Shown piece by piece: positions 2 to 22,426 of a stretch of DNA of 22,484 bases. The number at the start of each line of letters is the position of its first letter. Position 1 is the stretch's first letter. The notes beneath the pieces are model-generated. The model worked only from the letters and a program-made list of their open reading frames with translations. It ran no database searches and had not been told where the DNA came from. Both the position numbers and the translations under genes were made by a program. The stretch is from a virus. The DNA lies in the IMG/VR virus record IMGVR_UViG_3300036832_000206, positions 1 to 22,484 of that record. One strand, given 5' to 3'.

Positions 2-2692
2 AATATGCAAGACGATGCGAATGACAGCCAGCAAGATGAGTTCATGACTGAGCTCATTCAGGCTGGTATGGCTGCGATCCAGGATGAGGGAAGTGCGAGC
101 GCGATCTTCCCCATTTTGGTGCGTGGGCCAAAGGATGAATTGGCTGCTGTCCGGCAAGTGATGATCTCACGGCCTGAAGGCCAACGCTCGCAGGATCGTT
201 CCGAATTGATCGGGCGCATGGCCACGACGCTTGACCTACCCGCAGAGGTGCTCACAGGCAAAGGTGATCTAAACCACTGGACCGCATGGGCAGTCAGCGA
301 TGACACATTCAGCGACCATATTGAGCCATTAGTGATGGTAATTGATGATGCCCTCACTGCCGGCTACATGCGATTGGCGTTGAAGGAAACGTCTGGTCTA
401 GATGCTGATTGGGTATCGCGCGTCATCATCTGGCATGACCCAACGCGGCTTGTGCGCCACCCAGACCGTAGTCAAGATGCGCTTCAAGCGTATGACCGTC
501 TGGCGTTGAGCGACGCTGCGTTGCGGGATACCATGGGCTTCAGTGATACTGATGCACCAGACGCTGATGAACTTCTCATTCGTCTGCTTGTGCGGCAAAA
601 CAGACTTGACCCGACAATTACCGCTCAAATCATCAAACGGCTTGACAGTTCGCTGGACATTAGCGGCGTCACGCCTGAGAAGAAGACCGCTGAGCCGGGC
701 CAGCAGGACGAACAACCAGGCGGCCCAGGCCTGAATGGTGGACCTAATTCGGTGGCGCCATCTCCCACGCCGCCAGCCCAAGGACCGCCACAAGGTGGCC
801 AGCCCAGCCAGGAGAACCCAATGGCCCCGACTCCTGCTGGGGTGGCCGCCTCGTTGACTGCGTTGACTGCGACTGCTTCCCATGTTACCAAAGGGAATCG
901 CGCACTAAGTAAAATTGAAAGTCAATTGTTTGACAATTTGCTAACGGCATCCAACGCTAGCATGAGCAGAGCGCTTGAGAAGGCAGGCGCACGCATTCGT
1001 ACCACCGTTGGTCGGACAGCGTCTGGTCGCGCTTGGTGCGCATCACATTCAAATTTGCGGCTTTGCTTCCTCATCAGCAATGCGATGATCTCTGCCGCAG
1101 GCTTGGATGAACAGATTTTACTCAACAACGCATGGGAATCGCTCAAGGATGAGTACATGCAGTACGTTGAGTATGCGGACCAACGCGCACTCGACACCGT
1201 CGCGAGCATGCTCAAGACCGATCCTGATCAAATGCGGCAATTGGCTGGGCAATTGGCCCAATACAAGCACAATGGCTGGAATTACCTGTACCATCAATTG
1301 CAGCGAACAGGCATGGGCTACTTGAGTGACGCAAGCAATACGCTTGATGTTGGCGAGGCTGGCGAGATTACCACTACACGGCTTGTTGAGCCGCAAATCG
1401 TCAAAAACGCAATTGCGCGTGCTGGTGGTGCGCTTGAGCACGCAGCAGACTCAGCCAAATTTGATCCAACTGTTAGCGTTGCGATTCCGACACCAGGTCT
1501 TACGACAGGCCCCGCAGTCAGCAGTGCTCTCCAAGACGGTGGACTTGGAATTGAGAGTTACACTTGGGTGCATGGCTTCACGCCTAGTCCATTTGAGCCT
1601 CATTTGGCATTAGATGGCGTTGAGTTCTCATCGTGGACCGATGAGGTTTTGCTCAATGACGATGAATTCCCAGATCGTGACTACTTCATGCCTGGGGATC
1701 ATGATGGTTGCTCGTGCGATTTTCACGTCAATTGGTCGGACGCAATTGCTGCGGCAGGCCGCCCAAAAGGTCCAGCCTTAGCGCAGTTCTATGAAGACCA
1801 ACCACGTGCTGAAGGTGGCAAGTTCGGTGAGGGCAAAGAAAATGGCGACTCAGCCACGCCAGCAGATCGCGCTGCAGCCATTGAGGATGCCAAGCAAAAT
1901 GCTGGTATGGCCAGACAAACGGCAGCCAGATTGTACGACGCAGGCAAATTGGACGACGCCGCTGCTCTTGCCCAGACCCAGCAGGATGACGCGGTCATTA
2001 GTAGTGCTCAAGATACTGCTGATGAGAAGTACGATTCATATGCCGCAACGATTACAGATGAGGATAGACAAGCTGCTGAGGAACGTCACGCAGCATCGTA
2101 TGGTCGCGCTGGTGGCGATGATCGTCCAGGCCCGACTGTTCGTGCGCGATACCAGCAACAAATGATGACGGAATTTGGAGATGGAGAGCATGCACCGTGC
2201 ATCTACTGCGGACGCACGCTTGAGCCGGACACTGCTACGCTTGAGCGTTTAGTGCCTGGCAGAGAGGGTGGATTGTACGTAATGCCCAATTTGGCGCCAG
2301 CTTGTTACGATTGTAACAATTGGCGTGGAAACGCTGACTACCATGAGACTATGGCGGCATCAAAGGAATGGTTGAGTAGCTCTGTGACAGTGGCAGCAGC
2401 AGCCGTGCCGCCACAGCCATCCATCTTGCCGCTTGGTACTTGGGTGACGGCGAAATGCGTTGGCTACACTGATGATCCCAGCAACACAGAAGTCACGCCA
2501 ATTGCCGTGCCGCTTGAAGAGGTAAGCGGCAAATTGGATGGATATTGGGTCGGCACGTTTGGCTACTTCAAGTACATCGTTGCGGGATATGACGTTGAAG
2601 AAGACAGCATCAAGCCTGCACCAGAAGCTGAAGCAGAAACTGCTGAAGGAGACCAAAATGGGAGCGATCAGAGCTCACAGCACAGCGACTGA
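2..2692 (+). CDS. Portal protein C-terminal part fused to MuF-like and HNH-like zinc domains (5' truncated)
   Basis: The reading frame is open at the left edge and the first visible ATG (position 5) lies inside the portal fold, so the true start is upstream. Residue numbers below count from that ATG. Residues ~1-215 resemble the end of a siphovirus portal, the dodecameric DNA gate of the head, with the hallmark LDLPAEVLTGKGDLNHWTAW. A Pro/Gly/Gln-rich linker (~225-285) follows. A MuF-like helical segment (~300-600) ends in the cysteine motif GDHDGCSCDF (564-573). After QPRAEGGKFGEG and an Ala-rich helical stretch comes a CxxC...CxxC zinc-knuckle domain (C732, C735, C767, C770) with an HNH-like layout. 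The expected catalytic DH pair reads ER (LERLVPG), so nuclease activity is doubtful. A short acidic tail closes the protein. Portal identity is strong, MuF moderate; the role of the HNH-like part is unknown. Confidence 0.88.
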   Translation, partial: NMQDDANDSQQDEFMTELIQAGMAAIQDEGSASAIFPILVRGPKDELAAVRQVMISRPEGQRSQDRSELIGRMATTLDLPAEVLTGKGDLNHWTAWAVSDDTFSDHIEPLVMVIDDALTAGYMRLALKETSGLDADWVSRVIIWHDPTRLVRHPDRSQDALQAYDRLALSDAALRDTMGFSDTDAPDADELLIRLLVRQNRLDPTITAQIIKRLDSSLDISGVTPEKKTAEPGQQDEQPGGPGLNGGPNSVAPSPTPPAQGPPQGGQPSQENPMAPTPAGVAASLTALTATASHVTKGNRALSKIESQLFDNLLTASNASMSRALEKAGARIRTTVGRTASGRAWCASHSNLRLCFLISNAMISAAGLDEQILLNNAWESLKDEYMQYVEYADQRALDTVASMLKTDPDQMRQLAGQLAQYKHNGWNYLYHQLQRTGMGYLSDASNTLDVGEAGEITTTRLVEPQIVKNAIARAGGALEHAADSAKFDPTVSVAIPTPGLTTGPAVSSALQDGGLGIESYTWVHGFTPSPFEPHLALDGVEFSSWTDEVLLNDDEFPDRDYFMPGDHDGCSCDFHVNWSDAIAAAGRPKGPALAQFYEDQPRAEGGKFGEGKENGDSATPADRAAAIEDAKQNAGMARQTAARLYDAGKLDDAAALAQTQQDDAVISSAQDTADEKYDSYAATITDEDRQAAEERHAASYGRAGGDDRPGPTVRARYQQQMMTEFGDGEHAPCIYCGRTLEPDTATLERLVPGREGGLYVMPNLAPACYDCNNWRGNADYHETMAASKEWLSSSVTVAAAAVPPQPSILPLGTWVTAKCVGYTDDPSNTEVTPIAVPLEEVSGKLDGYWVGTFGYFKYIVAGYDVEEDSIKPAPEAEAETAEGDQNGSDQSSQHSD

Positions 2693-7990: not shown

Positions 7991-8809
7991 ATGACTGCCG
8001 CATTGCCCTCAGACGCGTGGATCACGCTTGGTGATGTCAAGACCATCCTTGGCCCTGACGCACCAACAACGCCTGAGGGCGATGCGGCATTACAACTCAA
8101 CATCGACTCTGCGGTCGAATTGCTGTACTCATTGAGCGGCAGGCAATTCCCAGGCACAATGAGCTCAACTGTTCGACCGACTTCAAAACCATCGTATATG
8201 CCTGTTGATACTTGGGCCTCCCAAATGAGAGTAGGTCTGTGGTCGTCTGGCTGGAACGCAAGCTGGCTATGGGGAATCTGCTCTGGATGCCATTACGCAG
8301 GTTGCTGCAATCCTGATACAATTGGTCTGGGTCGCAGTCCGGTCATCAGCGTTGAGCAAGTACAAATTGACGCTAACATCCTTGATCCGTCTGAGTATCA
8401 GGTATATGAACAAAAGTGGCTCACGCGGATGACGTGCTGCGATGGATGGCCGACATGCCAGAGATTGTCATGCCCCGTTGGCGATCCGTGTACATTCGAG
8501 GTTCAATTTACATGGGGACAAGACCCACCTCAAATTGGCAAGACTGCCGCAGGCAAGCTCTCATCTGAGCTGTACAAGGCCGATCAACCAGGACTAGCAT
8601 GTACATTGCCGCAACGGATCACCAGCATTACCAGGCAGGGCGTGTCAATTGCGATCTTGGATCCGCAGACGTTCCTGGACAAAGGTCTGACCGGCAATTA
8701 CCAAATTGACATATTCATCAAAGCCTATAACCCAGGAGGACAAGTCAGACGCCCCACGGTGTTCAGCCCAGACGTCATCAACACAGCACGCAAGCAGACT
8801 TATCCATGA
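7991..8809 (+). CDS. Head-to-tail adaptor (connector), cysteine-rich
   Basis: This 272-aa neck protein is expected to bind under the portal ring and link it to the tail (functional analogue of HK97 gp6 or SPP1 gp15). The start at 7991 is preferred over the ATG at 7988 because AAGGGAGG ends four bases before it. The N-terminal helix region AVELLYSLSGRQFPGTM is typical. Two cysteine clusters follow: C97, C100, C105, C106 and C149, C150, C156, C161, C167. The C-terminal half shows the family pattern GKTAAGKLSSELYKA, then CTLPQRITSITRQGVSI, ending GLTGNYQIDIFIKAYNPGG. The stop overlaps the next start (ATGA). I am confident of the family by pattern; zinc or disulfide binding by the cysteines is a guess. 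Confidence 0.8.
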   Translation: MTAALPSDAWITLGDVKTILGPDAPTTPEGDAALQLNIDSAVELLYSLSGRQFPGTMSSTVRPTSKPSYMPVDTWASQMRVGLWSSGWNASWLWGICSGCHYAGCCNPDTIGLGRSPVISVEQVQIDANILDPSEYQVYEQKWLTRMTCCDGWPTCQRLSCPVGDPCTFEVQFTWGQDPPQIGKTAAGKLSSELYKADQPGLACTLPQRITSITRQGVSIAILDPQTFLDKGLTGNYQIDIFIKAYNPGGQVRRPTVFSPDVINTARKQTYP

Positions 8810-9087
8810 GCTACAGATATGATCCATTCAGGGCACATCCACCACAAGAGCCAGAGTTCTGTGCCGAGATCATATTCAGCAAATATGATCGTTCTCGGGT
8901 CAAGGTCAAGATCAACGATGCTGATACAGCATGGTCTGTTAGCTGGGGCGATACTGCTGATGGTGATGTCGTTGAGTCTGGCGTGACTGAGGTCATCCAT
9001 CAGTATGGTGATACCCAGCAAGGTACGGCATATGAGATCAAAGTCATCAAAGGTACCAAGGATTTCACGCAAAGGATCACATACTGA
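8806..9087 (+). CDS. Small neck-region protein with PKD/Ig-like beta pattern
   Basis: This 93-aa protein overlaps the adaptor by four bases (ATGA) and the next gene by one base. Residues ~28-90 read as alternating strands with WSVSWGDTADGDVV, then VIHQYGDTQQGTAYEIKVIKG. The W-G-D turn, the later H-x-Y and the final Y-E-I-K-V strand resemble a PKD-type immunoglobulin-like fold. Such folds are frequent decorations of virion proteins. The first ~20 residues are Pro/His-rich and probably extended. It is likely to be a structural or decorating protein of the neck or head, but no exact family was recognised. Confidence 0.6.
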   Translation: MSYRYDPFRAHPPQEPEFCAEIIFSKYDRSRVKVKINDADTAWSVSWGDTADGDVVESGVTEVIHQYGDTQQGTAYEIKVIKGTKDFTQRITY

Positions 9088-9587
9088 TGATCTATGACCT
9101 TGCAACCAAATTGCTTGGTTTGGTTGCCGATGGCCTTGCTAATCAAGGGGTCACGGTGCCTGACCGGCAGTATGTGGCGCCTGGTAGCGATCTTGTGTTT
9201 GACTGCGAGCAACTCACCGTTCGGCTCACCCGCATTATCCCAGGTATGCAAGGTTCAGATACACCATTCCCTGTCGTTACACACAGCAAATTGCGCAAAT
9301 CCTGCGAATTGTTCGTTACCATGGTACGTTGCGTTCCAACGTTCCATAGCGATGGTTCGCCACCGACTGCTGACGAATATGAACCGCAGACGCAGATCCT
9401 GTTTGATGATGCGATGGCGTTGCGGATCGTTGTGGAGGATATTGAGCACAAGCATCTGCTTTTGCCGCCTAACATCCCTGCTACGGTTGGTGAACTGCAC
9501 ACAGTCGGTCCACTTGGCGGCTTTGCAGCCAATGAGATGATGTACAGCGCTGAGATCGTCAGCAATAAGACTGGGTGGGTGGGCTGA
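9087..9587 (+). CDS. Probable tail terminator / head-tail joining protein
   Basis: This 166-aa protein begins within the stop of the previous gene (TGATG). It carries YVAPGSDLVFDCEQLTVRL near residues 29-47, SCELFVTMVRCVPTF in the middle, and a late GPLGGFAANEMMYSAEIV strand. This arrangement of a helical N-terminus, a central antiparallel sheet and a final strand resembles the gpU/tail-terminator type proteins that cap the tube. I recall the DCEQLTV pattern from actinophage neck genes. Its position directly before an HK97 gp10-like gene and the tail assembly chaperones agrees with this. No membrane segment is seen. The exact role within the neck remains inferred. Confidence 0.65.
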   Translation: MIYDLATKLLGLVADGLANQGVTVPDRQYVAPGSDLVFDCEQLTVRLTRIIPGMQGSDTPFPVVTHSKLRKSCELFVTMVRCVPTFHSDGSPPTADEYEPQTQILFDDAMALRIVVEDIEHKHLLLPPNIPATVGELHTVGPLGGFAANEMMYSAEIVSNKTGWVG

Positions 9588-10048
9588 TGGCAGTTCAAAT
9601 TGCCCAAGGCAAGATCAATGACGGTCCTGGCTACAAGATCGTTATTGATTCGAAGGCACTGGACGACATGCTGAAAGGTCCACATGGCGTTGTCGTCAAA
9701 TTCATGATCCAGCAAGCTGAGAAAGTCCAAGCTGCCGCCAAGCGTCAATGTGGATACAGCAGCGAGACGACAAGCAGTGGCCACGGCCATTTGCGGGATA
9801 GCATCGTCAAGCGCATAATGGCGAACGGTTCAGCAGAGCCGATCGTCATGGTAGGCAGTAGTCATCCAATTGCACTTATTCACCATAACGGCACGCGGCC
9901 GCATGTGATTTATCCACGCACTGCTAGTGTTCTGGCCTTCCCATCAGATTCTGCGCCGACTGGCACGGCGTTCGCTATGTATGTGAATCATCCTGGTACG
10001 CAACCGAATCGCTACTTGACCGACAATCTCAGACTTATCGCTACCTGA
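9587..10048 (+). CDS. HK97 gp10-like tail completion / neck protein
   Basis: This 153-aa protein is predicted to help finish the tail end that docks to the head. The start at 9587 gives the same TGATG junction as the gene before it; the in-frame GTG at 9575 is less likely. The features that place it are a long helix (~26-50, with MIQQAEKVQAAAKRQCG), the LRDSIVKRI segment, and the C-terminal block IHHNGTRPHVIYPR followed by VNHPGTQPNRYLTDNL. The RPHVIxP...HPGTxP pattern is the signature I associate with gp10-like minor tail proteins. Its place between the terminator-like gene and the chaperones is the usual one. Confidence 0.75.
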   Translation: MAVQIAQGKINDGPGYKIVIDSKALDDMLKGPHGVVVKFMIQQAEKVQAAAKRQCGYSSETTSSGHGHLRDSIVKRIMANGSAEPIVMVGSSHPIALIHHNGTRPHVIYPRTASVLAFPSDSAPTGTAFAMYVNHPGTQPNRYLTDNLRLIAT

Positions 10049-10057
10049 GGAGTGAGC

Positions 10058-10408
10058 ATGACCAAGCAGTTCAAGGCACCACGAAACACCAAGGCGCCAT
10101 TGGACTTTGAGCTCACTTATGAGCGGCTCATTGATGGCGAATGGGAAGAGCAAACGGACAAGTTCAAGGCACGCGGTCAAATCGCTGGACATCTCATGAT
10201 GCGCATTGCTGGCGTTATGGATTCAGGCGTATCCATCCAAGCTGCTGAAATGGTCACGCTACTCAATAGCGCGGTCTTGTCTGAGTACAGGCCGGCATTT
10301 ATGAAACTCATTGACGACAATGATGTCGCCATCCCCATCGAGACACTTGGCGAGATTCTTGAGTGGCTGGCTGAGGAGTACACAGAACGCCCTACGCAAT
10401 CGGCCTAG
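10058..10408 (+). CDS. Tail assembly chaperone, short form (gpG-like)
   Basis: This 116-aa protein is predicted to bind the tape measure protein during tail assembly. GAGGAG lies five bases before the ATG at 10058; the in-frame GTG at 10052 overlaps that site and is rejected. The protein is helical and charged, with YERLIDGEWEEQTDKFKARG near the start and ending ILEWLAEEYTERPTQSA. Size, position directly before a second small frame and the tape measure, and the lack of an independent ribosome site for the next frame all support the G/GT chaperone arrangement. It is the normal product when the ribosome does not shift frame. Confidence 0.8.
   Translation: MTKQFKAPRNTKAPLDFELTYERLIDGEWEEQTDKFKARGQIAGHLMMRIAGVMDSGVSIQAAEMVTLLNSAVLSEYRPAFMKLIDDNDVAIPIETLGEILEWLAEEYTERPTQSA
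10390..10393 (+). promoter_or_regulatory. Candidate -1 frameshift site (CCCT) in the chaperone gene
   Basis: The second chaperone frame is -1 relative to the first and is open only from 10375, because TGA at 10372-10374 closes it upstream. The shift must therefore fall between 10375 and the TAG at 10406-10408. Within that stretch no classic X-XXY-YYZ heptamer is visible. The best pairing is the Pro codon CCT (10391-10393) slipping back to CCC (10390-10392), followed by TAC. This gives ERP then YAIGLALFGW. A small stem TTTGG/CCAAA (10414-10418 with 10424-10428) lies downstream. The exact base is a proposal. Confidence 0.45.
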
Positions 10409-10722
10409 CCTTATTTGGTTGGGCCAAAGAGACATGGGCGGACTTCAATGGTCGATTGCTCATGCAAAATGTAAATTGGGAGGATTTGGACGCTGCTGAA
10501 TTGTGTAACGTCATCTATAGCATGGTGATCGATGACGTCTGCGAGCAAGGAGTAGCGCGCGTTGAAGCACGTGAGGCTATCGACAAGCGATTGGCGGATC
10601 ATTTGATGCGATTCAATGCCCAGCAAGGCATAAAGCAGGAGCCTGAGCCATTCAAGCTTGATCCTGCTTTTGCTGCCAAACTCGGCATTAGATTGCCTGC
10701 GCCAGCTGGGAAGCAGCCATGA
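10393..10722 (+). CDS. Tail assembly chaperone, frameshifted extension (gpT-like part of the G-T fusion)
   Basis: This is the downstream half of the chaperone pair, read in the -1 frame. Continuous sense sequence runs through YAIGLALFGWAKETWADF, then LLMQNVNWEDLDAAEL, and ends RLPAPAGKQP. The internal ATG at 10456 has no ribosome site before it, and translation upstream of it is clearly protein-like, so independent start is unlikely. Joined at the proposed slip site, the fusion would be about 221 aa (112 plus 109). The stop overlaps the tape measure start (ATGA), coupling the two. In lambda-like phages the fused form recruits tube subunits to the tape measure; that role is carried over by analogy. 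Confidence 0.75.
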   Translation, partial: YAIGLALFGWAKETWADFNGRLLMQNVNWEDLDAAELCNVIYSMVIDDVCEQGVARVEAREAIDKRLADHLMRFNAQQGIKQEPEPFKLDPAFAAKLGIRLPAPAGKQP

Positions 10723-13274
10723 CAGTCATTGGTGAAGCTTACATCAAAATCAAGGGTGTCACCGAAGCTGACATGGGCAAATCCCTGACGGGTGTTGAGA
10801 ATCAAATTGAAGGCGTCGGTACATCAGCAGAGAAGTCAAGTGGACGCGCCAAGGCTGCCTTCAGGCAGATGGGTAGCGCACTTGGCAATGCATTTGGTCC
10901 AGCATTTGGCCCAATTGGCGAAATCATGGAGAAATTTGGTGAGATCGACAAAGCGGCAGGCGGACTCAAAAAGAACATAGGCGTGTACGCATTGGGCATC
11001 GGCGGTGCGATGACCACTGCAGGCACGATGATCACAACTTGGTCGGACAAGGACAAAACATCAACGGCGCAACTTGAGACGGCAGTCAAGAATGCCGGCG
11101 GCTCATGGGAAAAGTACAAGGACCAAACTGAAGAGGCAGTAAAACATCAAGAGGGATTTGGCCATACTGCTGTTGAGACCCAAGATGCCTTGACAGATTT
11201 GGTGACTAGGACGCATGACATTCACAAGTCATATGAGAATATGAATCTGGTTGCGGACATAGCTGCTCAAAAGCACACCTCATTAGCAAGCGCTGCCAGC
11301 ATTGTTTCACGTGTAATGAATGGTCAGACGCGTACATTGAAGTTGTACGGTATCAGCCAAGATTCACTCAACACCGCCATGGACAAAGGTGTGTATCATA
11401 CCAAGAACATGGCAATGCAGGAGGCACTTACCAAGCAACAGACAGACAAGAATGCTATTGCTAATCTGGCGTTGAAAGATGCACAAATTCGCAATCAACT
11501 AGCAACAACCAAAAACAAAGATGAACAAGCCAAGCTAACCAAGATACTGCATGATGATGCGCTCAAGCATGCTGAGCTGTCAGCAAGTATGAGCAAAAGC
11601 AGTGCTAAAGCTAGCACTTTGAAGACAGACTTGGCCAACATGGCCAAGGGCGCACAAGGTGGTGCCGCAGGCATTGAGTTGTTGAAGGAGAAACTCAAAG
11701 GCCAAGCTGCTATCGCTGCTGATACATTCTCCGGCAAGATGAAAGCCATAAAGGCCAGGATTGAAGACTTTGTCGGTGAGGTCGGGCAAAAAGTTGGTCC
11801 TGTTCTGCAAGCGGCAGGCCCCGCACTCATGGGCTTTGGCGCCATCATAGAGACTGGCGTTGTCCAGAAAATGGGCAAAGGTATCAAATTGCTTGCCGCA
11901 TGGGACAAGGAAAGCAAGATTGTTCAAGCGGTCACCAAGATCGGCACGGGTATCAACTACGCATTTGGTTTGTCTGAAGATGCGGCACTTGGCCCAATGG
12001 TTCTGGTTGTTGCTGCTATTGCCGCTTTGGCTGCTGGCGTCGTCATTGCTTACTTGAAGTTCAAGCCATTTCACGATCTTGTCAATGCGGTCGCTCGTGA
12101 CCTCAAGAAATGGTTCCTGGATGCTTTCGATGCGGTCAAGAAAGGCTTTGAAGACTTTGTTCATGGCTTTGAGGCCGTTTGGTCTACCGTAGTTGGTATT
12201 GTCAAGAAATATGGCTTGCTAATCCTTGCTGCTGTAGCACCATTCATCGGCATTCCGTTGCTGATCATTACGCACTGGAAGACGATTGTTGGATTCTTTA
12301 CCAAGTTGCCAGGTGAAGTCGTCAATGCCGTAGGCAACATTGGACGTACCATATGGTCTGCTGTCTCTGCCGGCATTACGTGGATCAAAGGCAAGTTCAA
12401 GGATGCTATTGATCTATGGGTTGACATCTACATCAAATTCCCATTGCGGGTGTTGAAGGCTATCGGCAATTTGGGCAGCAAGATCTGGACTGCAATCACA
12501 GATGGCCTAGCAACCATGAAGTCCAAGGTAATGGACTTCATTGGCGGCGTGGTAACATTCTTCGCTACGTTCCCCGCAAAGGTTATGCGAGCAATTGGTA
12601 ACTTGGGCTCCCAAATCTGGGGCGGCATTCAATCAGGCCTGGCCGCCATGAAGGATCACGTCACTACATGGGTGGGCAACGTTGCGGGATGGTTTGCCGG
12701 CTTGACTGGTAGGGCTGTACGTGCGATTGGCAACTTGGGCGGCGCAATTTGGAATGGCATTAGTAGTGGGCTCGGCACGGTCAAAACCAAGATCGGCAAC
12801 GCATTGAGCGGTGTCAAGACTGCGGTCACCAATGCCTTCACGGGTGCTGCCCAATGGCTGGTGAGTGCTGGCGGACAAATCATTGGCGGCTTGGTATCCG
12901 GCATCATCAGCTCAGTAGCAAGCAAGCTCAAGAGTGCTGTTAGCGGCATTGGCGGATTCATCAAGAGCCACAAAGGTCCAGAGGATTACGACCGTAGATT
13001 GCTTACGCCGCATGGTCATTGGATCATGGAAGGCCTCATCAAAGGCATTGAGGGGCACTTGCCTAATCTCCACGCTACATTACGTGGCGTAGGTGACAGC
13101 ATCAAATTGCCCATGCATCCCAATGCTGCCGGCGTAGTTGGCGGTGCTGGTGGCGGGTTTGGCGCCACACGAGTGATCAATTTGTTCCCAAATGCACAAA
13201 TTGACTTTGGGCGTGAGGACCCAGCATTCATAGTCCAGCGGCTGCAAACAGCATTGAGGGCAAGCAGGTTCTGA
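10719..13274 (+). CDS. Tail tape measure protein
   Basis: This 851-aa protein is the longest complete gene in the window and follows the chaperones, as tape measures do. Residues ~1-130 are Gly/Ala-rich with amphipathic helices. Residues ~130-400 are a helical rod rich in Lys, Gln and Ala. Hydrophobic stretches at ~427-447 and ~498-518 are likely membrane segments used when DNA crosses the host envelope. Four repeats of 44 residues (529-704) follow. Near the end is SHKGPEDYDRRLLTPHGHW followed by MEGLIKGI, a motif common near the C-terminus of tape measures. At about 0.15 nm per helical residue the protein predicts a tail near 125-130 nm. GC is low here (23/60 in one sampled line). Confidence 0.93.
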   Translation: MTVIGEAYIKIKGVTEADMGKSLTGVENQIEGVGTSAEKSSGRAKAAFRQMGSALGNAFGPAFGPIGEIMEKFGEIDKAAGGLKKNIGVYALGIGGAMTTAGTMITTWSDKDKTSTAQLETAVKNAGGSWEKYKDQTEEAVKHQEGFGHTAVETQDALTDLVTRTHDIHKSYENMNLVADIAAQKHTSLASAASIVSRVMNGQTRTLKLYGISQDSLNTAMDKGVYHTKNMAMQEALTKQQTDKNAIANLALKDAQIRNQLATTKNKDEQAKLTKILHDDALKHAELSASMSKSSAKASTLKTDLANMAKGAQGGAAGIELLKEKLKGQAAIAADTFSGKMKAIKARIEDFVGEVGQKVGPVLQAAGPALMGFGAIIETGVVQKMGKGIKLLAAWDKESKIVQAVTKIGTGINYAFGLSEDAALGPMVLVVAAIAALAAGVVIAYLKFKPFHDLVNAVARDLKKWFLDAFDAVKKGFEDFVHGFEAVWSTVVGIVKKYGLLILAAVAPFIGIPLLIITHWKTIVGFFTKLPGEVVNAVGNIGRTIWSAVSAGITWIKGKFKDAIDLWVDIYIKFPLRVLKAIGNLGSKIWTAITDGLATMKSKVMDFIGGVVTFFATFPAKVMRAIGNLGSQIWGGIQSGLAAMKDHVTTWVGNVAGWFAGLTGRAVRAIGNLGGAIWNGISSGLGTVKTKIGNALSGVKTAVTNAFTGAAQWLVSAGGQIIGGLVSGIISSVASKLKSAVSGIGGFIKSHKGPEDYDRRLLTPHGHWIMEGLIKGIEGHLPNLHATLRGVGDSIKLPMHPNAAGVVGGAGGGFGATRVINLFPNAQIDFGREDPAFIVQRLQTALRASRF
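12303..12830 (+). repeat. Four tandem 44-residue repeats in the tape measure
   Basis: The motif A-(I/V)-G-N-(L/I)-G-x-x-I-W recurs with its Asn at residues 540, 584, 628 and 672, an exact spacing of 44 residues (132 bases). Each unit also carries a Gly-rich turn and a Lys after the motif, and most start with (F/L)-P. The DNA copies have diverged, so this is an old protein-level duplication, not a recent DNA repeat. Confidence 0.85.
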
Positions 13275-15131: not shown

Positions 15132-16270
15132 TGACAGATCTTGCGATTTTGGGCGCGCTTGGTATTGACCCATTTGCTGTGGTCAGGCCATCGCCTATCA
15201 TCACTTTGCCCAAGACGCACTGGCAGATCGTCATTGGTAACAACAACATCGGTCCGCAGTATGAGCTGACGACTGCTAGGCAACGCAATTTGAACTACCA
15301 TGTGGTTGATTCTGACTTGCTGTCGTTCACCATGGACGGCAACGATCCCAACCTTCAATTCATCACTGAGCTGGTAACTGATGCTTGGGTGTTCCGTAAT
15401 GGTGCTTTATTGTTCCGTGGACGCATCGGCAGCTCACAAGATATCTTGGATGGCGAGGCTGATACGTATGAGATTCAGTTCAATGCATTTGGTTACCGTG
15501 AATGGTTAGCCAGGCAAATTCTCCAGCCTAGCCACAAATGGACTTGGAAGCAGGTTACGCAAGCGCAGATTATCAACGACATGTTCACATATTGTATCAG
15601 AGGCCAGTCGGGCATTCATCCGACGTTCACCATTGATACCAGTATGATGCCGACCAGTAAGACCAATTACGATTTTGTGGTTGGCACATCAGTCAAGGAA
15701 GCACTTGGCGTGATGACTGGCTTTGGATGGCAAGTATATCCCAACAGTACCATGGGTTTGACACTCAAAGCCATTCCATCGTTCTACTACAATATGAATC
15801 ACAATTACGTGCTTGAGTATGGTAGCACGGTACGCAAGGTTACAAGGTCATACGATACCAGCGGGTATGCTAACTCAATCGTGTACAATGGCGATGTCAA
15901 GTTGGCGCCTGTTCAGGCTGACGCGTCTGGGATCGCCAGCAAGCCTGAGGGTCGCATGGGCTTGGCCTTGTCAAATTCAGCCATTGTTGATAAGACCCAT
16001 CTCAGCAATGTAGCTGCCAACGCTGCTGTATCTGCGCAATCTGTCGTGCCGATCTATGAGTGCGAGATACAGTCTGGCGCATGGCAGAGCAATGTCGATG
16101 CGTGGATTGGTGACATATGCAAATTTGTGGTGAAGAAAGGTCGCATCAACATCAACGACCAATATCGCATCACAGATATGAGCATTGCTATCAATGATGA
16201 TTCGACACGAGCAGACACTGTCGTGATGACGGTCGTCAAGCCACCGTTCATTCCAGGTGGGGTGATCTAA
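15131..16270 (+). CDS. Minor tail protein, ReqiPepy6 Gp37-like / hub-like
   Basis: This 379-aa protein starts in the previous stop (TAATG). Its N-terminal half has RQRNLNYHVVDSDLLSFTMD, then ITELVTDAWVFRNGALLFRG, then a FNAFGYREWLARQIL stretch. This is the pattern of tail hub proteins related to T4 gp27 and of the family named after Gp37 of phage ReqiPepy6. The middle has LEYGSTVRKVTRSYDTSGYA followed by a NSIVYNGD segment, where such proteins insert their second barrel. The C-terminus closes with DQYRITDMSIAINDDSTRAD. It probably forms the central plug-like hub through which the tape measure and DNA leave. No peptidase motif is seen. Confidence 0.75.
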   Translation: MTDLAILGALGIDPFAVVRPSPIITLPKTHWQIVIGNNNIGPQYELTTARQRNLNYHVVDSDLLSFTMDGNDPNLQFITELVTDAWVFRNGALLFRGRIGSSQDILDGEADTYEIQFNAFGYREWLARQILQPSHKWTWKQVTQAQIINDMFTYCIRGQSGIHPTFTIDTSMMPTSKTNYDFVVGTSVKEALGVMTGFGWQVYPNSTMGLTLKAIPSFYYNMNHNYVLEYGSTVRKVTRSYDTSGYANSIVYNGDVKLAPVQADASGIASKPEGRMGLALSNSAIVDKTHLSNVAANAAVSAQSVVPIYECEIQSGAWQSNVDAWIGDICKFVVKKGRININDQYRITDMSIAINDDSTRADTVVMTVVKPPFIPGGVI

Positions 16271-18234
16271 TGAGCGCTCCCAGTTACTTGGACAAATTCC
16301 CAAGTAACCCAGTCGATACGCTCAAGGCATTTGATCGACGCATTGGCACGCTTGAGCGCACATCAGGCAATGCGATCAGTGCTGATCCAAATGACCCATC
16401 CCAAAAGCCAACATATGTGTACAACGCAACCATGTCTCCCATGCCTACATCGACTTGGAGCGAAATCACAAGCTGGGATACGGTTGATATTGGTCAAGTG
16501 CCAATGTCGTCTGATGGCAAATACTTTCAGCCTGATGCTGATGGCTATTACCATATTGCCGTCAAAGTCAGATGGCCTGGCAACAATACAGGTCAACGTC
16601 GCGCCATGCTTTCAGAGCATGGGGCTTCAGCCGGCATGAACTTCTCATTCTATGATGCTCACGCTGCTGTGGCAATTACAGATTCAAGATCGTTAGTACC
16701 GCAATATTTGTACGGTGGTCGGCTTTATGCCGTAATGGTGTACCAAACATCTGGCGTTAGTTTGACGCCATTGGATGTTACTGCTGCGGTTTGGCCGCAT
16801 GGCGGTGCGACTGGTGCGCCTGGTCCGGCTGGTCCAACTGGTACTACTGGGAGTCAAGGCCCAGCAGGCGTGACTGGTCCGCCTGGCTCGACTGGCCCTG
16901 CCGGTCCACAAGGTGGCGCAGGTCCACCTGGCGCACAAGGTCCAATTGGACCAGCTGGTATCAATGGTGATCCTGGACCTGCTGGACCACAAGGCGCAGA
17001 TGGCGTCGGCGTTCCCGCAGGCGGCACTGCTGGTGAGAGTCTCGTCAAGACATCGGATAATGATTATGACACTGAATGGACGATGGTTTCTGGTGGTGGT
17101 CAAATTGGACCACAGGGCCCTGCTGGTCCGGCTGGTCCGCAAGGTCCGCCAGGCACCGATGGAGCAACTGGTCCTCAAGGTGTACCTGGCCCCACTGGCC
17201 CTCAAGGCTCAACAGGCTCCACAGGTCCGACAGGCGCAACAGGGCCAGCTGGTTCCCAAGGCGCCCAGGGTGATCCGGGACAAACTGGTGCTGCGGGGCC
17301 ACCTGGAGCAGAGGGACCGATAGGGCCGCAAGGTGTTGATGGGCCAGTTGGTCCGCCAATCAACATTAGCGGTACGGTCCCAAGCGCCCCAGGCGATTTG
17401 CCGACTGGGCTTGGTCCAGCAGATGCTGGCAAAGGCTGGATCTCAGACGACACAGGACATTTGTGGACCTGGGATGGAGATTCTTGGGTTGATGCCGGTC
17501 CAGTTCAAGGTCCGACAGGTCCAATTGGACCGACTGGCCCGGCTGGTGATCCTGGTCCTGTAGGTCCGGCTGGACCTGAAGGTCCAACAGGTCCGCCAGG
17601 CGCTGGTGTCACCATTGACGGCACTGTGCCTTCATTTGGCCAATTACCGCCATTAGGGCCAGCGGATGCCGGCCAAAGCTGGATGACGCAGGATAATGGC
17701 CATCTGTTCTATTGGGATGGCACGCAGTGGTTCGATCTTGGTCCAATTCAAGGCCCACAAGGTCCACCTGGTGATACTGGCGCTCCTGGTGCTGCCGGAT
17801 CATCATACGTACAAAGGCTGATAGCGCCAAGTGCTGGTCTCATCTACACAGTCACGCATGACCTCAATACATCGCATCCATTAGTTCAATTATGGGATGC
17901 GGTCACAAATGGACTCATTCAAGGTGAAGTTGCTGCGGTCGATCCCAACTATATTTGGGTTTCATTCAACGTCAAGCCGCCGAATGATGTGAATGTTGTT
18001 ATTGGCGCTGGTGTTCCGCCAACTGCTGCCTCTGCTGCTGGTTATTACAGGCATTACCAGACCGCTGCGGCAACGACATGGAGTGTACCGCATAACCTTG
18101 GCTTCAGACCAAACGTCACAGTCGTTGACTCTGCGTACGATGCGATTTTCCCTGGAAATGTTCATTATCCAGATGACAATAATGTGACGTTGACATTCTC
18201 TGCTTCAGTTGGTGGGGAAGCATACTTGAGCTGA
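16270..18234 (+). CDS. Collagen-like tail fibre protein with duplicated Trp-hairpin modules
   Basis: This 654-aa fibre overlaps the previous stop (TAATG), with AGGTGGGG upstream. Residues ~1-30 have a helical [19 protein letters not shown] segment, likely the tail-attachment end. Residues ~45-175 form a beta domain like those starting other fibres. Collagen-type Gly-X-Y runs follow at 179-247 (23 triplets), 280-363 (28), 414-446 (11) and 495-509 (5). Two homologous modules lie between runs: 364-413 with [15 protein letters not shown] and 447-494 with [15 protein letters not shown]. The C-terminus holds two related small domains (513-581 with [12 protein letters not shown], 592-654 with [17 protein letters not shown]). 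The Gly-X-Y runs imply a trimeric stalk. The tip domains may bind the host surface. Confidence 0.85.
16804..17796 (+). repeat. Interrupted collagen-like Gly-X-Y tracts and duplicated module
   Basis: Four Gly-X-Y runs (about 23, 28, 11 and 5 triplets) are separated by one unrelated linker and by two copies of a ~50-residue module at 17359-17508 and 17608-17751. The two module copies share the order GTVPS...LP...LGPADAG...W...GHL...WDG..W...GP. Many runs reuse GGTCC and CCAACTGG-like words, so the DNA itself is repetitive and prone to slippage or recombination. Confidence 0.85.
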
Positions 18235-18244
18235 AGGGACTGCT

Positions 18245-19558
18245 ATGCCTGTGATCTATGGCGCAGTCGATCTTGCTAGGAATGAATTGCGCAATGCGGT
18301 TGTCCAGAACTTGGGTGCTGCGCCATCCAGTCCTACCAAGGGTTTGCTTTGGTATGACTCGACCAACAATATCCTCAAATGGTATGACGGCACGACATGG
18401 CAGAGCGCCATAGGTGGAGCCGTACCACCAGCGACGGCAACTGTTCTAGGTACAATTCAGCTTGCTGGCGATCTTACAGGCACGGCGACTGCGCCAGCAA
18501 TCGCACCTAATGCGGTAACGTCAGCAAAGATTGCTGATGGAACAATCCAAGCAATCGACATAGCTGCTGGTGTGATCCCAACTAATTTGCCACCAAGTGG
18601 TGCTGCTGGTGGTGGGTTGGCCGGCACATACCCTAATCCAACGATAGCAAGCAATTCTGTGAGCAGCGCGCAGATTGTTGATGCCACCATTCAAATTGGT
18701 GATACCATCACAGGCTTTGACTTGGGTGCGTTGTCCACAGTTCACCCAACTGCCGCTGATGTTTCGCTGAATGGCAAGAAGATCGTCAGCTTGGCTGATC
18801 CAGTCAATGCGCAAGATGCAGCCAGCAAAAACTATGTTGATACTACTGCTCAAGGATTGGATGCCAAGCAATCAGTCAAAGCGGCAAGCACGATCAACGT
18901 CAATGTCGGTGCCCAAATCTCATCTATGGATGGCGTATCACTTGCTGTTGCTGACCGATTCTTGCTGAAGAATCAGACCAATGCTGCTGAGAATGGTATC
19001 TGGGATTCCACTGGGGCATCTGGGTTTCCCAGACGCTGTTTTGATATGGATAATTGGTCTGAAGTCCCATCTGCATATGTGTGGGTAGAGCAAGGCAGTA
19101 CAAATGCGGACACAGGTTGGGTTTGTACTGCTGATCAAGGCGGCACTATCGGCACCACTGCTATGCCTTGGGCACAATTCTCAGGCGCGGCAATGATAAA
19201 TGCCGGTGCTGGCTTGACCAAGACCGGCAATACCATCGATGCTGTCGCTACTGATACAACGCTGACGGTTGCGGCCGATTCTATTGCGGTCAACACTGCG
19301 GTCATTGCGACTCAGGCATACGTCAATAATGCCGTTACTGGTGTGACCAAGAAATTTGCGGCGGCATTGACTGGTACGGCCAGCCCTGAGGTGGTCACCC
19401 ATAACCTCAATACACGAGACATTCAGCTCACAGTGCTCAATGGCGCATCGCCATATACCGCAGTGGAAGTTGACTGGGATGCGACGTCGCTCACCCAAGC
19501 AACAATTCGGTACAACCCAGCGCTTGGTGCTGGATATCGCGTTGTGATTGTGGGCTGA
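18245..19558 (+). CDS. Modular tail fibre protein
   Basis: This 437-aa protein has AAGGGA five bases before the ATG. The N-terminus carries GLLWYDSTNNILKWYDGTTW, a Trp-hairpin module like those of the collagen-like fibre and the next fibre. The stretch GGGLAGTYPNPTIA (residues ~121-134) is nearly repeated in the gene at 20264. Residues ~175-200 have the linker ADPVNAQDAASKNYVD, common in phage fibres. Residues ~205-320 contain AVADRFLLKNQTNAAENGIW, then VEQGSTNADTGWVCTADQGG, a widespread fibre domain. The last ~65 residues (VVTHNLNTRDIQLTVLNG to the end) match the tip domain of the collagen-like fibre. It is probably a side or tip fibre; the binding target is unknown. Confidence 0.8.
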   Translation: MPVIYGAVDLARNELRNAVVQNLGAAPSSPTKGLLWYDSTNNILKWYDGTTWQSAIGGAVPPATATVLGTIQLAGDLTGTATAPAIAPNAVTSAKIADGTIQAIDIAAGVIPTNLPPSGAAGGGLAGTYPNPTIASNSVSSAQIVDATIQIGDTITGFDLGALSTVHPTAADVSLNGKKIVSLADPVNAQDAASKNYVDTTAQGLDAKQSVKAASTINVNVGAQISSMDGVSLAVADRFLLKNQTNAAENGIWDSTGASGFPRRCFDMDNWSEVPSAYVWVEQGSTNADTGWVCTADQGGTIGTTAMPWAQFSGAAMINAGAGLTKTGNTIDAVATDTTLTVAADSIAVNTAVIATQAYVNNAVTGVTKKFAAALTGTASPEVVTHNLNTRDIQLTVLNGASPYTAVEVDWDATSLTQATIRYNPALGAGYRVVIVG

Positions 19559-19563
19559 TCACC

Positions 19564-20262
19564 ATGCCTAGTTTGCTTATCGCCATTATGCTCTTTTGGG
19601 CCAACGTTGAAGGTGCTAGCCATACCACGGCGAATGGTAATGACCCAGGGAGGGCAAGTGGGATTACACGTATGGGTATCATGGCTAGCATCATCGAACA
19701 GCAGCGAGCGAATTTGGGCGTACTTGTCGAGTTGGAGCCTGTCCAAGCCAGGGCGTTCCTTGTCGACACGCATGGGGCCTATGCCATCGTCCATCCTATT
19801 GGAGACACGCGCAATTCCATATTCTACAGACGTGCCGCGTTCAAATTGATGTGGCAATCGCATTTGACTGTGCCTTACTTCAATGGACATCCATGGCGGA
19901 TTCCCATTGCTCGTCTGTGTAATCGCATCAGCCATCACTGCTTGCGGGTGATCGGAGTACATAACACGGCCAGCACACATCGCTTTCCACATCAAGGCAA
20001 ATGGCGAGCGCAGGATGTCGATCTTGAAGTTAGATACATCAATCGACACCCAAAGGCACATATCGTAATTGCTGGTGATTGGAATGAGCTTCATCCTGGG
20101 ATCGCCATGCGTACCAACTTGATCCGCGCAGGACATATTGCTCGAATTGATGCTGCATTCGCACGACGACAACACTGGTCAAATTATCAACGCATCACAG
20201 GGCCAAGGGTGACACGTGCGACTGATCACCAGGCCGTCTATGCGGCTCAATTGAGAGGTTAG
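19564..20262 (+). CDS. Endonuclease/exonuclease/phosphatase (EEP) superfamily enzyme in the fibre cassette
   Basis: This 232-aa protein has the motifs of the DNase I-like EEP superfamily in the right order: Asn14 (FWANVEG), Glu56 (VLVELEPVQ), SIFYRR near 105, His133 (VIGVHNTAST), Asp172 and Asn174 (VIAGDWNE), Asp196 (RIDAAF), and Asp221/His222 (TDHQAV). All metal-binding and catalytic positions appear present, so a Mg-dependent phosphodiesterase or phosphatase is likely. The first ~12 residues are hydrophobic but match the first strand of the fold, so a signal peptide is not assumed. The ribosome site is weak, and the gene starts six bases after a fibre stop, suggesting coupling. The substrate could be DNA, a phospholipid or a wall phosphodiester; the sequence does not decide. 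Confidence 0.8.
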   Translation: MPSLLIAIMLFWANVEGASHTTANGNDPGRASGITRMGIMASIIEQQRANLGVLVELEPVQARAFLVDTHGAYAIVHPIGDTRNSIFYRRAAFKLMWQSHLTVPYFNGHPWRIPIARLCNRISHHCLRVIGVHNTASTHRFPHQGKWRAQDVDLEVRYINRHPKAHIVIAGDWNELHPGIAMRTNLIRAGHIARIDAAFARRQHWSNYQRITGPRVTRATDHQAVYAAQLRG

Positions 20263-20263
20263 C

Positions 20264-21037
20264 ATGCCTCGCACCTTTGGGATCAGCAACGTAGCACCCT
20301 ACGCGGCAGCACCCGCAGTCGGCAATGCTGGCGACACATATTGGAATACAACAAACAAGACGCTGTATGTGTCTGATGGTTCTGCCTGGAACCCATGGCC
20401 GACAGGCACAGGAGGACCACCATCTGGCGCGGCTGGTGGTGATCTATCTGGTACATATCCCAATCCGACTGTTGCGGCTGGTGTGCCTGCGGCTACTGCG
20501 AGTGCGTTGATGCGGCGTGACGCCAGTGGACGTTCTCAAGTTACTGATCCGAGTGTTGCGGCAGACATAGCTACCAAGGGATACGTTGACGGTTTATTCG
20601 CGGTGCAGGCAATGCAGAGCCAAGCGACCACCAACATTGGCAACGCCGCATGGTCGTCTCCGATCACTGGCTGGTTGCAGATGCAGTCGCCGGTCAACAC
20701 TATCGGTGGAATATCCGGTGGACAGGTCGTGGTGAAAACCGCGCTGGCCGGGGCATACCTACTGCTCACCGCGACAGTCACATTTGCGGCAGCAACGACG
20801 GGTGGGCAGCGGCGCTCAATTCGATTTGAGGTCAACGGCGCTTCGATTGGGAGCAATGAGGGCGCTGCCTCACTGACCAACATACCGTTCAGCGTGTCGC
20901 TGACCACCGTCTATGGGCCTTGCGTTGGCGGCGAGACCATCGATGTGTCCGTCTACCACAACCAGGGTGGCACTGTTGCGTTGCAGCCTATGTATGCGAG
21001 CTACGGGCACCTGTTCCATCTAATAAGAGTCGCATAA
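20264..21037 (+). CDS. Tail fibre / putative receptor-binding protein with C1q-like end
   Basis: This 257-aa protein has a modular N-terminus: GDTYWNTTNKTLYVSDGSAW (a Trp-hairpin module), then GGDLSGTYPNPTVA, nearly the same as in the fibre at 18245. ADIATKGYVDGL (~100-112) is a linker helix typical before fibre heads. Residues ~120-257 are a beta-rich head with RRSIRFEVNGASIGS and IDVSVYHNQGGTVAL. This resembles the C1q/TNF-like jelly roll used by many phages as a trimeric receptor-binding tip. From about 20580 the DNA becomes clearly GC-richer, so the head domain may have come from another phage by recombination onto an old stalk. The start lies one base after the EEP stop. Confidence 0.72.
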   Translation: MPRTFGISNVAPYAAAPAVGNAGDTYWNTTNKTLYVSDGSAWNPWPTGTGGPPSGAAGGDLSGTYPNPTVAAGVPAATASALMRRDASGRSQVTDPSVAADIATKGYVDGLFAVQAMQSQATTNIGNAAWSSPITGWLQMQSPVNTIGGISGGQVVVKTALAGAYLLLTATVTFAAATTGGQRRSIRFEVNGASIGSNEGAASLTNIPFSVSLTTVYGPCVGGETIDVSVYHNQGGTVALQPMYASYGHLFHLIRVA

Positions 21038-21240
21038 GGTTCATAAGACCTGAGGAGGTCAAATTGAGTTACAACTCTGCGGCTGATATGCATGATGATC
21101 ACTACCTGAACCAACGTCTGATCGCTTGTGCTAGTGAGCAGGGCAAGGTCGAACCAGGCGGTGACGCCGACCAGGCCGCCAACTGGGTGACGGCCCACAA
21201 GTGGGCGATTGTGAACGCGCCTGGCTGGGCTGCGAAATGG
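20580..21240 (+). other. GC-rich patch across the fibre head and the next small gene
   Basis: Hand counts of 60-base lines give 37/60 (20641), 38/60 (20761), 37/60 (20881) and 40/60 (21121) G+C, against 30/60 (18241) and 29/60 (19861) nearby. The rise begins close to the stalk-head boundary of the fibre gene, where domain swaps usually occur, and fades by about 21240. Confidence 0.6.
21047..21060 (+). promoter_or_regulatory. Hairpin holding the ribosome site of the TTG-start gene
   Basis: GACCT (21047-21051) can pair with AGGTC (21056-21060) around a GAGG loop, giving a 5-bp stem. The Shine-Dalgarno core GAGGAGG (21052-21058) lies in the loop and the 3' arm. Folding would partly mask it. This may lower or regulate translation of the gene starting at 21064. 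Confidence 0.45.
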
Positions 21241-21336
21241 GATACGGCCAGAGTCAACGGCAATCTCTCGCCAGGCAATGACTCAAGTGTGATTACCGAT
21301 GAGGACATCCTTGCGGTCATTCAGCCAATGACATAG
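21064..21336 (+). CDS. Small conserved actinophage protein next to tail fibre genes
   Basis: This is a 90-aa protein if started at TTG 21064. That start is preferred because GAGGAGG ends five bases upstream; the next in-frame ATG (21088) has no such site and would remove a conserved-looking N-terminus. The sequence contains HDDHYLNQRLIACASEQG, then ANWVTAHKWAIVNAPGWAAK, and ends GNDSSVITDEDILAVIQPM. The pattern W-V-x-x-H-x-W-x-I-...-P-G-W ... G-x-D-x-x-V-I-T-D-x-x-I-L is one I recall from small genes near the tail/lysis boundary of actinophages, with no known function. It is soluble, and no membrane segment is seen. Confidence 0.7.
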   Translation: MSYNSAADMHDDHYLNQRLIACASEQGKVEPGGDADQAANWVTAHKWAIVNAPGWAAKWDTARVNGNLSPGNDSSVITDEDILAVIQPMT

Positions 21337-21351
21337 TTGGGAGACATGGGA

Positions 21352-21501
21352 ATGACAGAGCAAGAGTCTGAGCGGGAACCAGAGCAACGCGATTCTGGCG
21401 ACTCGTCACGATTAGCATATGCGCCAGAATGGTGGCTTGAAGAGCACCAAAAAGAGGGTCAAGAAGATATTGACCGTGAGGGACGTCACCGCGATGACTG
21501 A
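21352..21501 (+). CDS. Small charged protein upstream of the lysin
   Basis: This is a 49-aa reading frame that fills the gap between two genes. It is very rich in Glu, Asp, Gln and Arg, with LAYAPEWWLEEHQKEGQEDI in the middle. TTGGGAG lies about eight bases before the ATG at 21352; another in-frame ATG at 21346 would be too close to that site. Its stop overlaps the lysin start (ATGACTGA). Small acidic proteins with a WWLEE-like motif often sit at this place in actinophages, but no function is known. The tight fit between neighbours is the main support. Confidence 0.55.
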   Translation: MTEQESEREPEQRDSGDSSRLAYAPEWWLEEHQKEGQEDIDREGRHRDD

Positions 21502-22426
21502 GTATGCGCCGCAAGCGATCACAGATTTGTTCAACACGGTCAAGGCAGGCATCCCTGCGGCGCTCATGGGTGGGATCATTGGGGATAAGGCCCATACATA
21601 TGGCTACCATCGCGGTCGCAATTACGTTGGTGGGAATGACTATTCAGTCCAAAAACCACCAGACAAAAAGGGCAATGGCGAGGCTGCGAGTGCGCTGGAT
21701 ATCTCATGGTCCACAGCACAACCGCAATATGACGTGAGCAAGCGATTGTTGAACGCCAAGAACGACAGCCGAATGAATTGCGTGCGTGAGTTCTACGGCT
21801 CAACAGATGGACGCACGGTATGCGGTTGGGATTACTATGGCAACTATGCGGTTACCAGCGACGACAGTCATCTTTGGCACATTCACTTGTCGATCTTGCG
21901 TGAATACGCAGACAATCACAATGCGCTCCAAGGTGTGGCAGATGTCATAACAGGAAAGTCCAGTGGTAGCAGTGGAACAGGAGGCGATGACGTGCCGCAA
22001 CGACTGAACGTCACCAGGACTGAGGATGTTGGCTTGAACGCCAATGAGGTCATCGAATTGAGATTCAACAATGAGGCCACCGACACCGGCAACATCTTCT
22101 ACGGCAGCGGTGAGCCGACAGGTGATGAGAAAGGCTCACTCATCAAGACCGACAACTCACCTTACGTGTCCACATTCACATGCGTAGTCAGCGGAGTAGC
22201 CAGTGGGCAATCTGTGTGGACTGGCCTGTCTTGGGTGGACATCGCCAGCGGTGAAACCACTGGGTCTGGCGCGTGGATGGAGCATGTCGCCAATGGCGGT
22301 GACGTCAACGTAGTAGACACCAGAGTTGGGCATTCTGGCAAGGGCAAAGGTCTGAAGGTCAGGATCAAGGCAAGTGAGGGCGCAACCATCAAATCTGGTG
22401 CGAATTGGTTCGTTCTCTACTGGTAG
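21494..22426 (+). CDS. Endolysin-like protein: M15-type metallopeptidase domain plus beta-rich C-terminal domain
   Basis: The preferred start is ATG 21494 (310 aa), with GAGGGA about nine bases upstream; GTG 21476 and ATG 21419 are alternatives. Residues ~1-155 contain YGYHRGRNYVGGNDYSV (H39, D49), ASALDIS (D69) and SHLWHIHLSILREYAD (H126, H129, H131). The order H...D...HxH fits the M15/LAS zinc peptidases that cut peptide cross-links of cell walls, and I recall this version from Streptomyces phages. A Gly/Ser linker (~158-170) leads to a ~135-residue beta-rich domain ending SGANWFVLYW, probably for wall or surface binding. It could be the endolysin or a virion-associated lysin; the location just after the tail genes allows both. 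Confidence 0.72.
   Translation: MTEYAPQAITDLFNTVKAGIPAALMGGIIGDKAHTYGYHRGRNYVGGNDYSVQKPPDKKGNGEAASALDISWSTAQPQYDVSKRLLNAKNDSRMNCVREFYGSTDGRTVCGWDYYGNYAVTSDDSHLWHIHLSILREYADNHNALQGVADVITGKSSGSSGTGGDDVPQRLNVTRTEDVGLNANEVIELRFNNEATDTGNIFYGSGEPTGDEKGSLIKTDNSPYVSTFTCVVSGVASGQSVWTGLSWVDIASGETTGSGAWMEHVANGGDVNVVDTRVGHSGKGKGLKVRIKASEGATIKSGANWFVLYW

Follow-up and report, generated by a model that had tools for sequence, protein, structure and literature searches.

Gene organization of the tail fibre cassette

The window analysed here, meaning the whole stretch of 22,484 nucleotides (positions 1 to 22,484 of the IMG/VR virus record IMGVR_UViG_3300036832_000206), contains a cassette in which a tape measure, a Dit-like protein and further tail proteins are followed by a collagen-like fibre, fibre 1, an EEP gene, fibre 2, a small ORF and a putative endolysin. 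The features that are relevant in this context are listed below.

16270..18234, plus strand: collagen-like tail fibre, upstream in the same cassette
18245..19558, plus strand: fibre gene 1 (437 aa), the upstream neighbour, assigned to PHROG structural families and containing a DUF5907 repeat
19559..20263, plus strand: inserted interval between the fibre genes, which in 33 of 36 relatives meet at this point (-7 to +5 nt)
19564..20262, plus strand: EEP (Exo_endo_phos, PF03372) phosphohydrolase gene, assigned by ORF, Pfam and fold match
20264..21037, plus strand: fibre gene 2 (257 aa), the downstream neighbour, with a conserved N-terminal MPRxFGI...AGDxYWNT module and a variable C-terminus
21419..22426, plus strand: putative endolysin, downstream, with His motifs that by eye resemble those of M15 peptidases

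According to the ORF list of the window, the EEP gene starts with ATG and encodes 232 amino acids. Only 5 nt separate it from the end of fibre gene 1 and a single nucleotide from fibre gene 2. Moreover, both fibres possess a common GTYPNPT / GYVD module (29% identity, E 1e-4), which bears out the original prediction of a gene lodged between two fibre genes that share modules. The EEP protein itself is devoid of a fibre anchor domain and of a separate N-terminal extension ahead of the first EEP strand. The putative endolysin yielded no PHROG match and merely a sub-threshold Pfam match. At the other end of the window, a portal-like ORF as judged by eye (895 aa, positions 5-2692, plus strand) includes an HNH endonuclease-like stretch at residues 732-775, which scores below the Pfam cut-off.

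A longer antisense ORF (19423-20175, 250 aa) overlaps the EEP gene. Substitutions between the orthologues are distributed over the three codon positions of the plus frame as 7/7/21 and 61/64/134. Since they concentrate in the third positions, the plus frame is the coding one, and the antisense ORF is ruled out as a true gene. The EEP gene has a GC content of 51.4% and a codon use inside the range of its neighbours; hence, its base composition gives no sign of recent transfer. Because the capsid and the tape measure are similar to those of actinobacteriophages, the host of the phage is probably an actinobacterium.

Family membership and active site

The Pfam model PF03372 matches residues 38-222 of the window protein (E 5.4e-7, 30.0 bits, as compared to a curated cut-off of 24.5 bits) and exceeds the cut-off in all three orthologues, namely the window protein and those of the records L003 and L004. 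The characteristic residue set of EEP enzymes (N, E, H, DxN, D and [S/T]DH) is complete and in order, at the following positions.

19603..19605, plus strand: codon of N14, first metal-site Asn (FWANVEG), invariant
19735..19737, plus strand: codon of E58, probable metal-binding Glu (LVELE), two codons downstream of E56, placed by alignment and profile comparison
19960..19962, plus strand: codon of H133 (VHNTAST), invariant
20074..20085, plus strand: G171-D172-W173-N174 motif, invariant
20149..20151, plus strand: codon of D196 (RIDAAFA), invariant
20221..20229, plus strand: T220-D221-H222, the terminal [S/T]DH motif, of which D-H is invariant

Among the orthologues, N14, E56, E58, H133, D172, N174, D196, D221 and H222 are invariant. 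In a set of eight phage EEPs, comprising the window protein (P0001), its two orthologues and five proteins of about 20% identity to P0001, the invariant residues are N14, E58, H133, G171-D172-W173-N174, D196, D221 and H222. Profile comparison likewise places the QE glutamate of other phage EEPs opposite E58 and not opposite E56, and E58 is thus more likely than E56 to be the catalytic or metal-binding glutamate. The residues named in the original prediction are all present and invariant in the orthologues, E56 included, although E58 is the likelier active-site residue. From this residue set, the protein would be expected to act as a metal-dependent phosphodiesterase.

Assignment to a particular subfamily is a different matter. 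The window protein has no match in NCBIfam; no PHROG family matches the EEP at E 0.01, and P0001 obtains none even at E 10. Searches of PDB sequences with P0001 or with a profile of the orthologous trio returned no match either. The proposed tie to DNase I, CdtB or sphingomyelinase found no support, as neither NCBIfam nor PDB sequences revealed specific similarity, while the best matches of fold and wide profile are TDP2 and ExoIII. In addition, no PADLOC defence family matches the protein, so that a defence gene finds no support.

AlphaFold produced a useless model from the three orthologues alone (pLDDT 32), while the alignment of eight sequences gave a model with pLDDT 53 and pTM 0.55 in which the elements follow an EEP-like order. 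A Foldseek search of the PDB related this model to TDP2 with a probability of 1.00 and an E value of 5e-8, at a TM score of about 0.57. The viral EEP matches include proteins of Streptomyces phage Yosif and Citrobacter phage CrRp3 as well as the tail fibre of Citrobacter phage CR8. For the window protein, the EEP fold, a four-layer alpha-beta sandwich, has support from a model of modest confidence that is weak at both ends. The window model and the wide profile match the EEP fold of TDP2, ExoIII and the Bacteroides EEP 3mpr; nevertheless, these are cellular enzymes with only 12-16% identity to the window protein, and TDP2 and ExoIII serve in DNA repair.

Orthologues, insertion site and selection

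With the patterns tried, two orthologues were found in IMG/VR, in L003 (95%) and L004 (56%), where the gene occupies the site that it has in the window. With fibre 1 as query, 47 loci were retrieved, in 36 of which both fibre genes were readable. The fibre genes abut (-7 to +5 nt) in 33 of these 36 loci, equivalent to 23 of 26 lineages when loci are collapsed at 97% identity of the C-terminal part of fibre 1, and an insert of 705-708 nt occurs only in the window, L003 and L004. No PF03372 match was obtained anywhere in 40 further related records, many of which are fragments. In the tree, the three carriers form one clade (support 1.0), whose sister comprises the empty-site loci L006 and L027. 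Because the carriers constitute a single clade and 33 of 36 loci are empty, the EEP gene appears to have been gained once by a clean insertion, with loss in all other lineages being less likely. After the gain, it diverged to 56% identity.

Between the window and L003, dN/dS is about 0.16; the more distant L004 is saturated at synonymous sites and displays the third-position excess. The EEP gene is retained under purifying selection. The original prediction had set against itself the case of a random single insertion with decayed motifs: a single insertion confined to one clade is indeed what was found, but its motifs are intact. Accordingly, the claim of a complete EEP enzyme, above the PF03372 cut-off, with intact residues and kept by selection, holds.

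Several observations concern the surroundings of the insertion site. In L003 (14005-14502) and L004 (9746-10246), fibre 2 is followed by a tail collar gene (PF07484 in L004), which the window does not have at 21038-21418. Near the fibre region, L004 (11877-12407), L005 (12481-13104) and L006 (11346-11858) encode small proteins that combine a single hydrophobic segment with a collagen-like repeat, and L005 carries a single collagen-like fibre gene of 1227 aa (8309-11992) where other members possess several fibre genes.

Signal peptides and site of action

Signal peptides were called from residues and hydropathy. The N-terminus of the L004 orthologue (ATG at 8153), MRRCWALTLTWMLLVPPANADA, represents a Sec-type signal with an AxA-like site, and the phage EEP of L086 likewise carries a signal peptide. 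The proteins of the window, L003, L109, L071 and L075 feature a short hydrophobic N-terminus that leads straight into the first strand and in which no cleavable signal is clear; cleavage at an N-terminus of the window type would remove the first strand and nearly the catalytic Asn. Pfam recognizes only PF03372 in the window protein, which has no fused Phage_T7_tail or Tail_spike_N anchor. Owing to the signal peptide of L004 and this lack of an anchor, export or release would fit better than a part in the virion. With respect to the proposed virion- or infection-linked phosphodiesterase, the enzyme is fixed in the fibre operon, but the Sec signal of L004 points to export and not to virion assembly.

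The L004 signal peptide also bears on the notion that the gene is cargo for the host, for instance a secreted phosphodiesterase by which a cell harbouring the persisting phage would obtain phosphate from DNA or from polymers of the teichoic type. Bacteria commonly secrete EEP enzymes, and a clean single-gene insertion, dispensable in most relatives, would suit such a role. On the other hand, gaps of 5 and 1 nt exclude a promoter or terminator of its own and tie the gene to fibre expression; moreover, a PF00589 integrase match is absent from either carrier contig tested, these contigs being fragments. Host cargo is hence a most improbable explanation.

EEP domains in other phages

Two degenerate motif scans of IMG/VR added about 15 phage EEP records, with support from PF03372. 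In the first GDWN pattern scan, the inspected loci were due to chance, the two known carriers excepted, and the matches of the wider GDWN/GDFN patterns, again mostly chance, were kept only where PF03372 or the complete motif set supported them. PF03372 scores fall below the cut-off in L129, L142, L157, L200 and L094. Ten of the about 15 records place the EEP in or beside tail or lysis genes: it is fused to Amidase_2 in L073 and L113 (the amidase match of L113 being below its cut-off), forms part of an M23-carrying tape measure in L135, has M23 genes as neighbours in L109 and L071, follows tape measure or minor tail genes in L086, L150 and L094, adjoins a holin in L129 and comes after an amidase in L157. 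L149, L165 and L200 display no such setting, and L075 and L142 were counted neither way. As the sample was selected by motif and has no control rate, this association is suggestive only.

The proteins of L073 (261-1724, minus strand) and L113 (2199-3638, plus strand) are endolysin-like, with an N-terminal amidase and a C-terminal EEP domain, an architecture of which we found no description. L135 (1951-8553, plus strand) encodes a tape measure of 2200 aa with an M23 peptidase and a C-terminal EEP domain. These three proteins bring EEP into an envelope-attack set, as is proposed for the window, but unlike the window protein they are fused to peptidoglycan-cutting domains. By profile, the window trio is most closely approached by the stand-alone EEPs of L109, L071 and L086 (169 aligned columns, 24% identity), which adjoin an M23 endolysin or follow tape measure and minor tail genes. 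In contrast to the window gene they are not situated between fibre genes, and they are about 20% identical to it with an hhalign probability of 33%, obtained from thin profiles.

The vicinity of endolysins and holins is also in line with an extracellular DNase which, released or exported late, would degrade spilled chromosomal DNA of the host or matrix DNA and thereby free virions. EEP domains that are fused to or adjoin endolysins and holins suggest an activity at lysis, the L004 signal peptide agrees with export, and the fold is best matched to DNA phosphodiesterases. Furthermore, secreted phage-encoded DNases of another fold occur in streptococcal prophages. The match to DNA enzymes is nonetheless weak evidence for DNA as substrate, since a large share of the solved EEP structures is from TDP2 and ExoIII. 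In fibres with a Tail_spike_N adaptor, the C-terminal EEP occupies the site of a receptor-cleaving domain, where the use of a DNase is not obvious. On balance we regard a DNase as somewhat unlikely.

A search of isolated phages with the EEP domain of CR8 gp17 retrieved 17 records. In CR8, Cronobacter B1, BEK2 and Se-J, the EEP is located C-terminal to Phage_T7_tail and/or Tail_spike_N modules. CR8 gp17 and the proteins of CR44b, Cronobacter B1, Escherichia BEK2 and BEK3 and Salmonella Se-J resemble the window protein in that PF03372 with intact motifs resides in a tail fibre cassette. However, the domain is fused behind these modules in CR8 and its like, while the window protein is free-standing, and profile similarity between the CR8 type and the window is limited to the GDWN region. 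Closer in arrangement are cds10 of Citrobacter phage CrRp3 and gp49 of Proteus phage PM 116, where, as in the window, the EEP is a separate gene (about 290 aa) adjoining spike- or fibre-like genes. Both start with a short MxQRLGSxLVKH segment, absent from the window protein, which we take to resemble the SP6-like tailspike anchor. In enterobacterial phages that are unrelated to one another (L217:9729-10544, L218:5719-6552, L220:5725-6531 and L221:4642-5454), the EEP fibre gene is succeeded by the gene of a conserved protein of about 270 aa; this protein is noted as a virion protein in CR8, and the pair may travel together.

These fibres bear on the possibility of a virion-borne enzyme, held non-covalently at the fibre tip and acting on the cell surface during adsorption. 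All three carriers have the gene flanked by two fibre genes, EEP is an integral part of enterobacterial phage fibres, and gp17 is noted in the record of CR8 as matched by mass spectrometry. Opposed to this, P0001 has no fibre anchor, unlike CR8, BEK2, Se-J and B1, and the Sec-type signal of L004 would take the protein out of the cytoplasm, where tails assemble. A virion-borne enzyme is thus quite unlikely.

The genome paper of CR8 contains no discussion of the EEP domain of gp17 (PMC4038870), and the open-access literature yielded no paper that says what EEP domains do in phage tails. The original prediction, which knew of no described role at this place, nevertheless calls for qualification, since public records do place EEP in tail fibres such as CR8 gp17, in endolysins and in a tape measure. 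Searches of isolated phages by tblastn with the EEPs of the window, L004, L073, L109 and L094 gave no match; neither did a plasmid search with P0003. Two pattern scans of bacterial genomes, able to find close relatives only, detected no relative.

A counter-example to the tail or lysis setting is gp5 of Streptomyces phage Yosif (L224:1675-2373), hypothetical in its record, which adjoins terminase and HNH genes. Pfam finds no match in gp5, although EEP motifs can be discerned by eye, and the EEP protein of Yosif was matched by fold. This case lends some weight to a cytoplasmic nuclease or phosphatase whose target would be nucleic acid, either incoming or of the host (as in TDP2-like removal of protein from DNA ends), or a defence nucleotide signal; TDP2 and ExoIII are the nearest solved folds, and neither the window protein nor that of L003 has a clear signal peptide. 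Conversely, L004 and L086 possess signal peptides, the window gene is found among fibre and not replication genes, EEP is fused to endolysin and tape measure in other phages, and PADLOC provided no match. A cytoplasmic role is hence very unlikely.

A candidate function in envelope attack

Our tentative preference, which falls short of being probable, is a late extracytoplasmic EEP phosphodiesterase that belongs to an envelope-attack set and cuts a phosphodiester-linked polymer of the host surface. This reading is favoured because of the full active site, selection, the position in the fibre operon, one signal peptide and the domain company in other phages, where EEP recurs in envelope-attack proteins (fibres, endolysins, tape measure). 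For the EEP protein we infer catalysis, late expression, site of action and substrate alike. The enzyme would be made late, together with the fibre proteins, and would act after leaving the host cytoplasm, through Sec export in the lineage of L004 and, in that of the window, through lysis or by means of the uncleaved hydrophobic N-terminus. Its substrate would most likely be a teichoic-type wall polymer or a phosphorylated glycan, the cleavage of which could aid escape and spread of virions after lysis or access to the wall.

Several points speak against the envelope-attack reading. The sequence indicates no substrate, and the structural neighbours with known substrates (TDP2, ExoIII) are DNA-end enzymes. 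No signal peptide that is clearly cleavable is seen in the window protein, export being suggested for the L004 orthologue only. Yosif gp5 adjoins a terminase gene, so that the setting is not universal. Finally, the evidence on the host is limited to the actinobacteriophage similarity of capsid and tape measure and does not indicate wall polymer content. A precedent for tail-associated phosphodiesterases exists in enterococcal phages, whose tail modules are reported to contain a GDPD phosphodiesterase proposed to cut wall teichoic acid (PMC10194240). These enzymes share with the window gene the combination of phosphodiesterase and tail module but differ in fold and family; hence, the precedent makes the wall-polymer reading reasonable without being a test of it.

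Implications for phage biology

The EEP enzyme family and, from public records, EEP domains in tail fibres are already known. New are a free-standing EEP at an exactly defined insertion site with empty-site relatives, an orthologue with a signal peptide, and the EEP pattern across endolysins, tape measures and fibres. Taken together, phage EEPs might constitute an unrecognised class of envelope-attack phosphodiesterases, captured independently as fibre tips, as domains of endolysins and tape measures and as free exported enzymes, which cut phosphodiester-linked surface polymers beyond the reach of glycosidase-type depolymerases; we consider this generalization possible yet rather doubtful. If the enzyme is a DNase instead, it would represent a rare nuclease tied to fibre expression. 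The present yield is a catalogue of candidates, including the isolated phage CR8, and, thanks to the empty-site relatives, it can be tested how a single added gene affects adsorption or release. If phage EEPs do act on surface polymers, an enzyme class would be added to the known depolymerases and tail lysins, which would explain how some phages pass through phosphate-rich envelopes.
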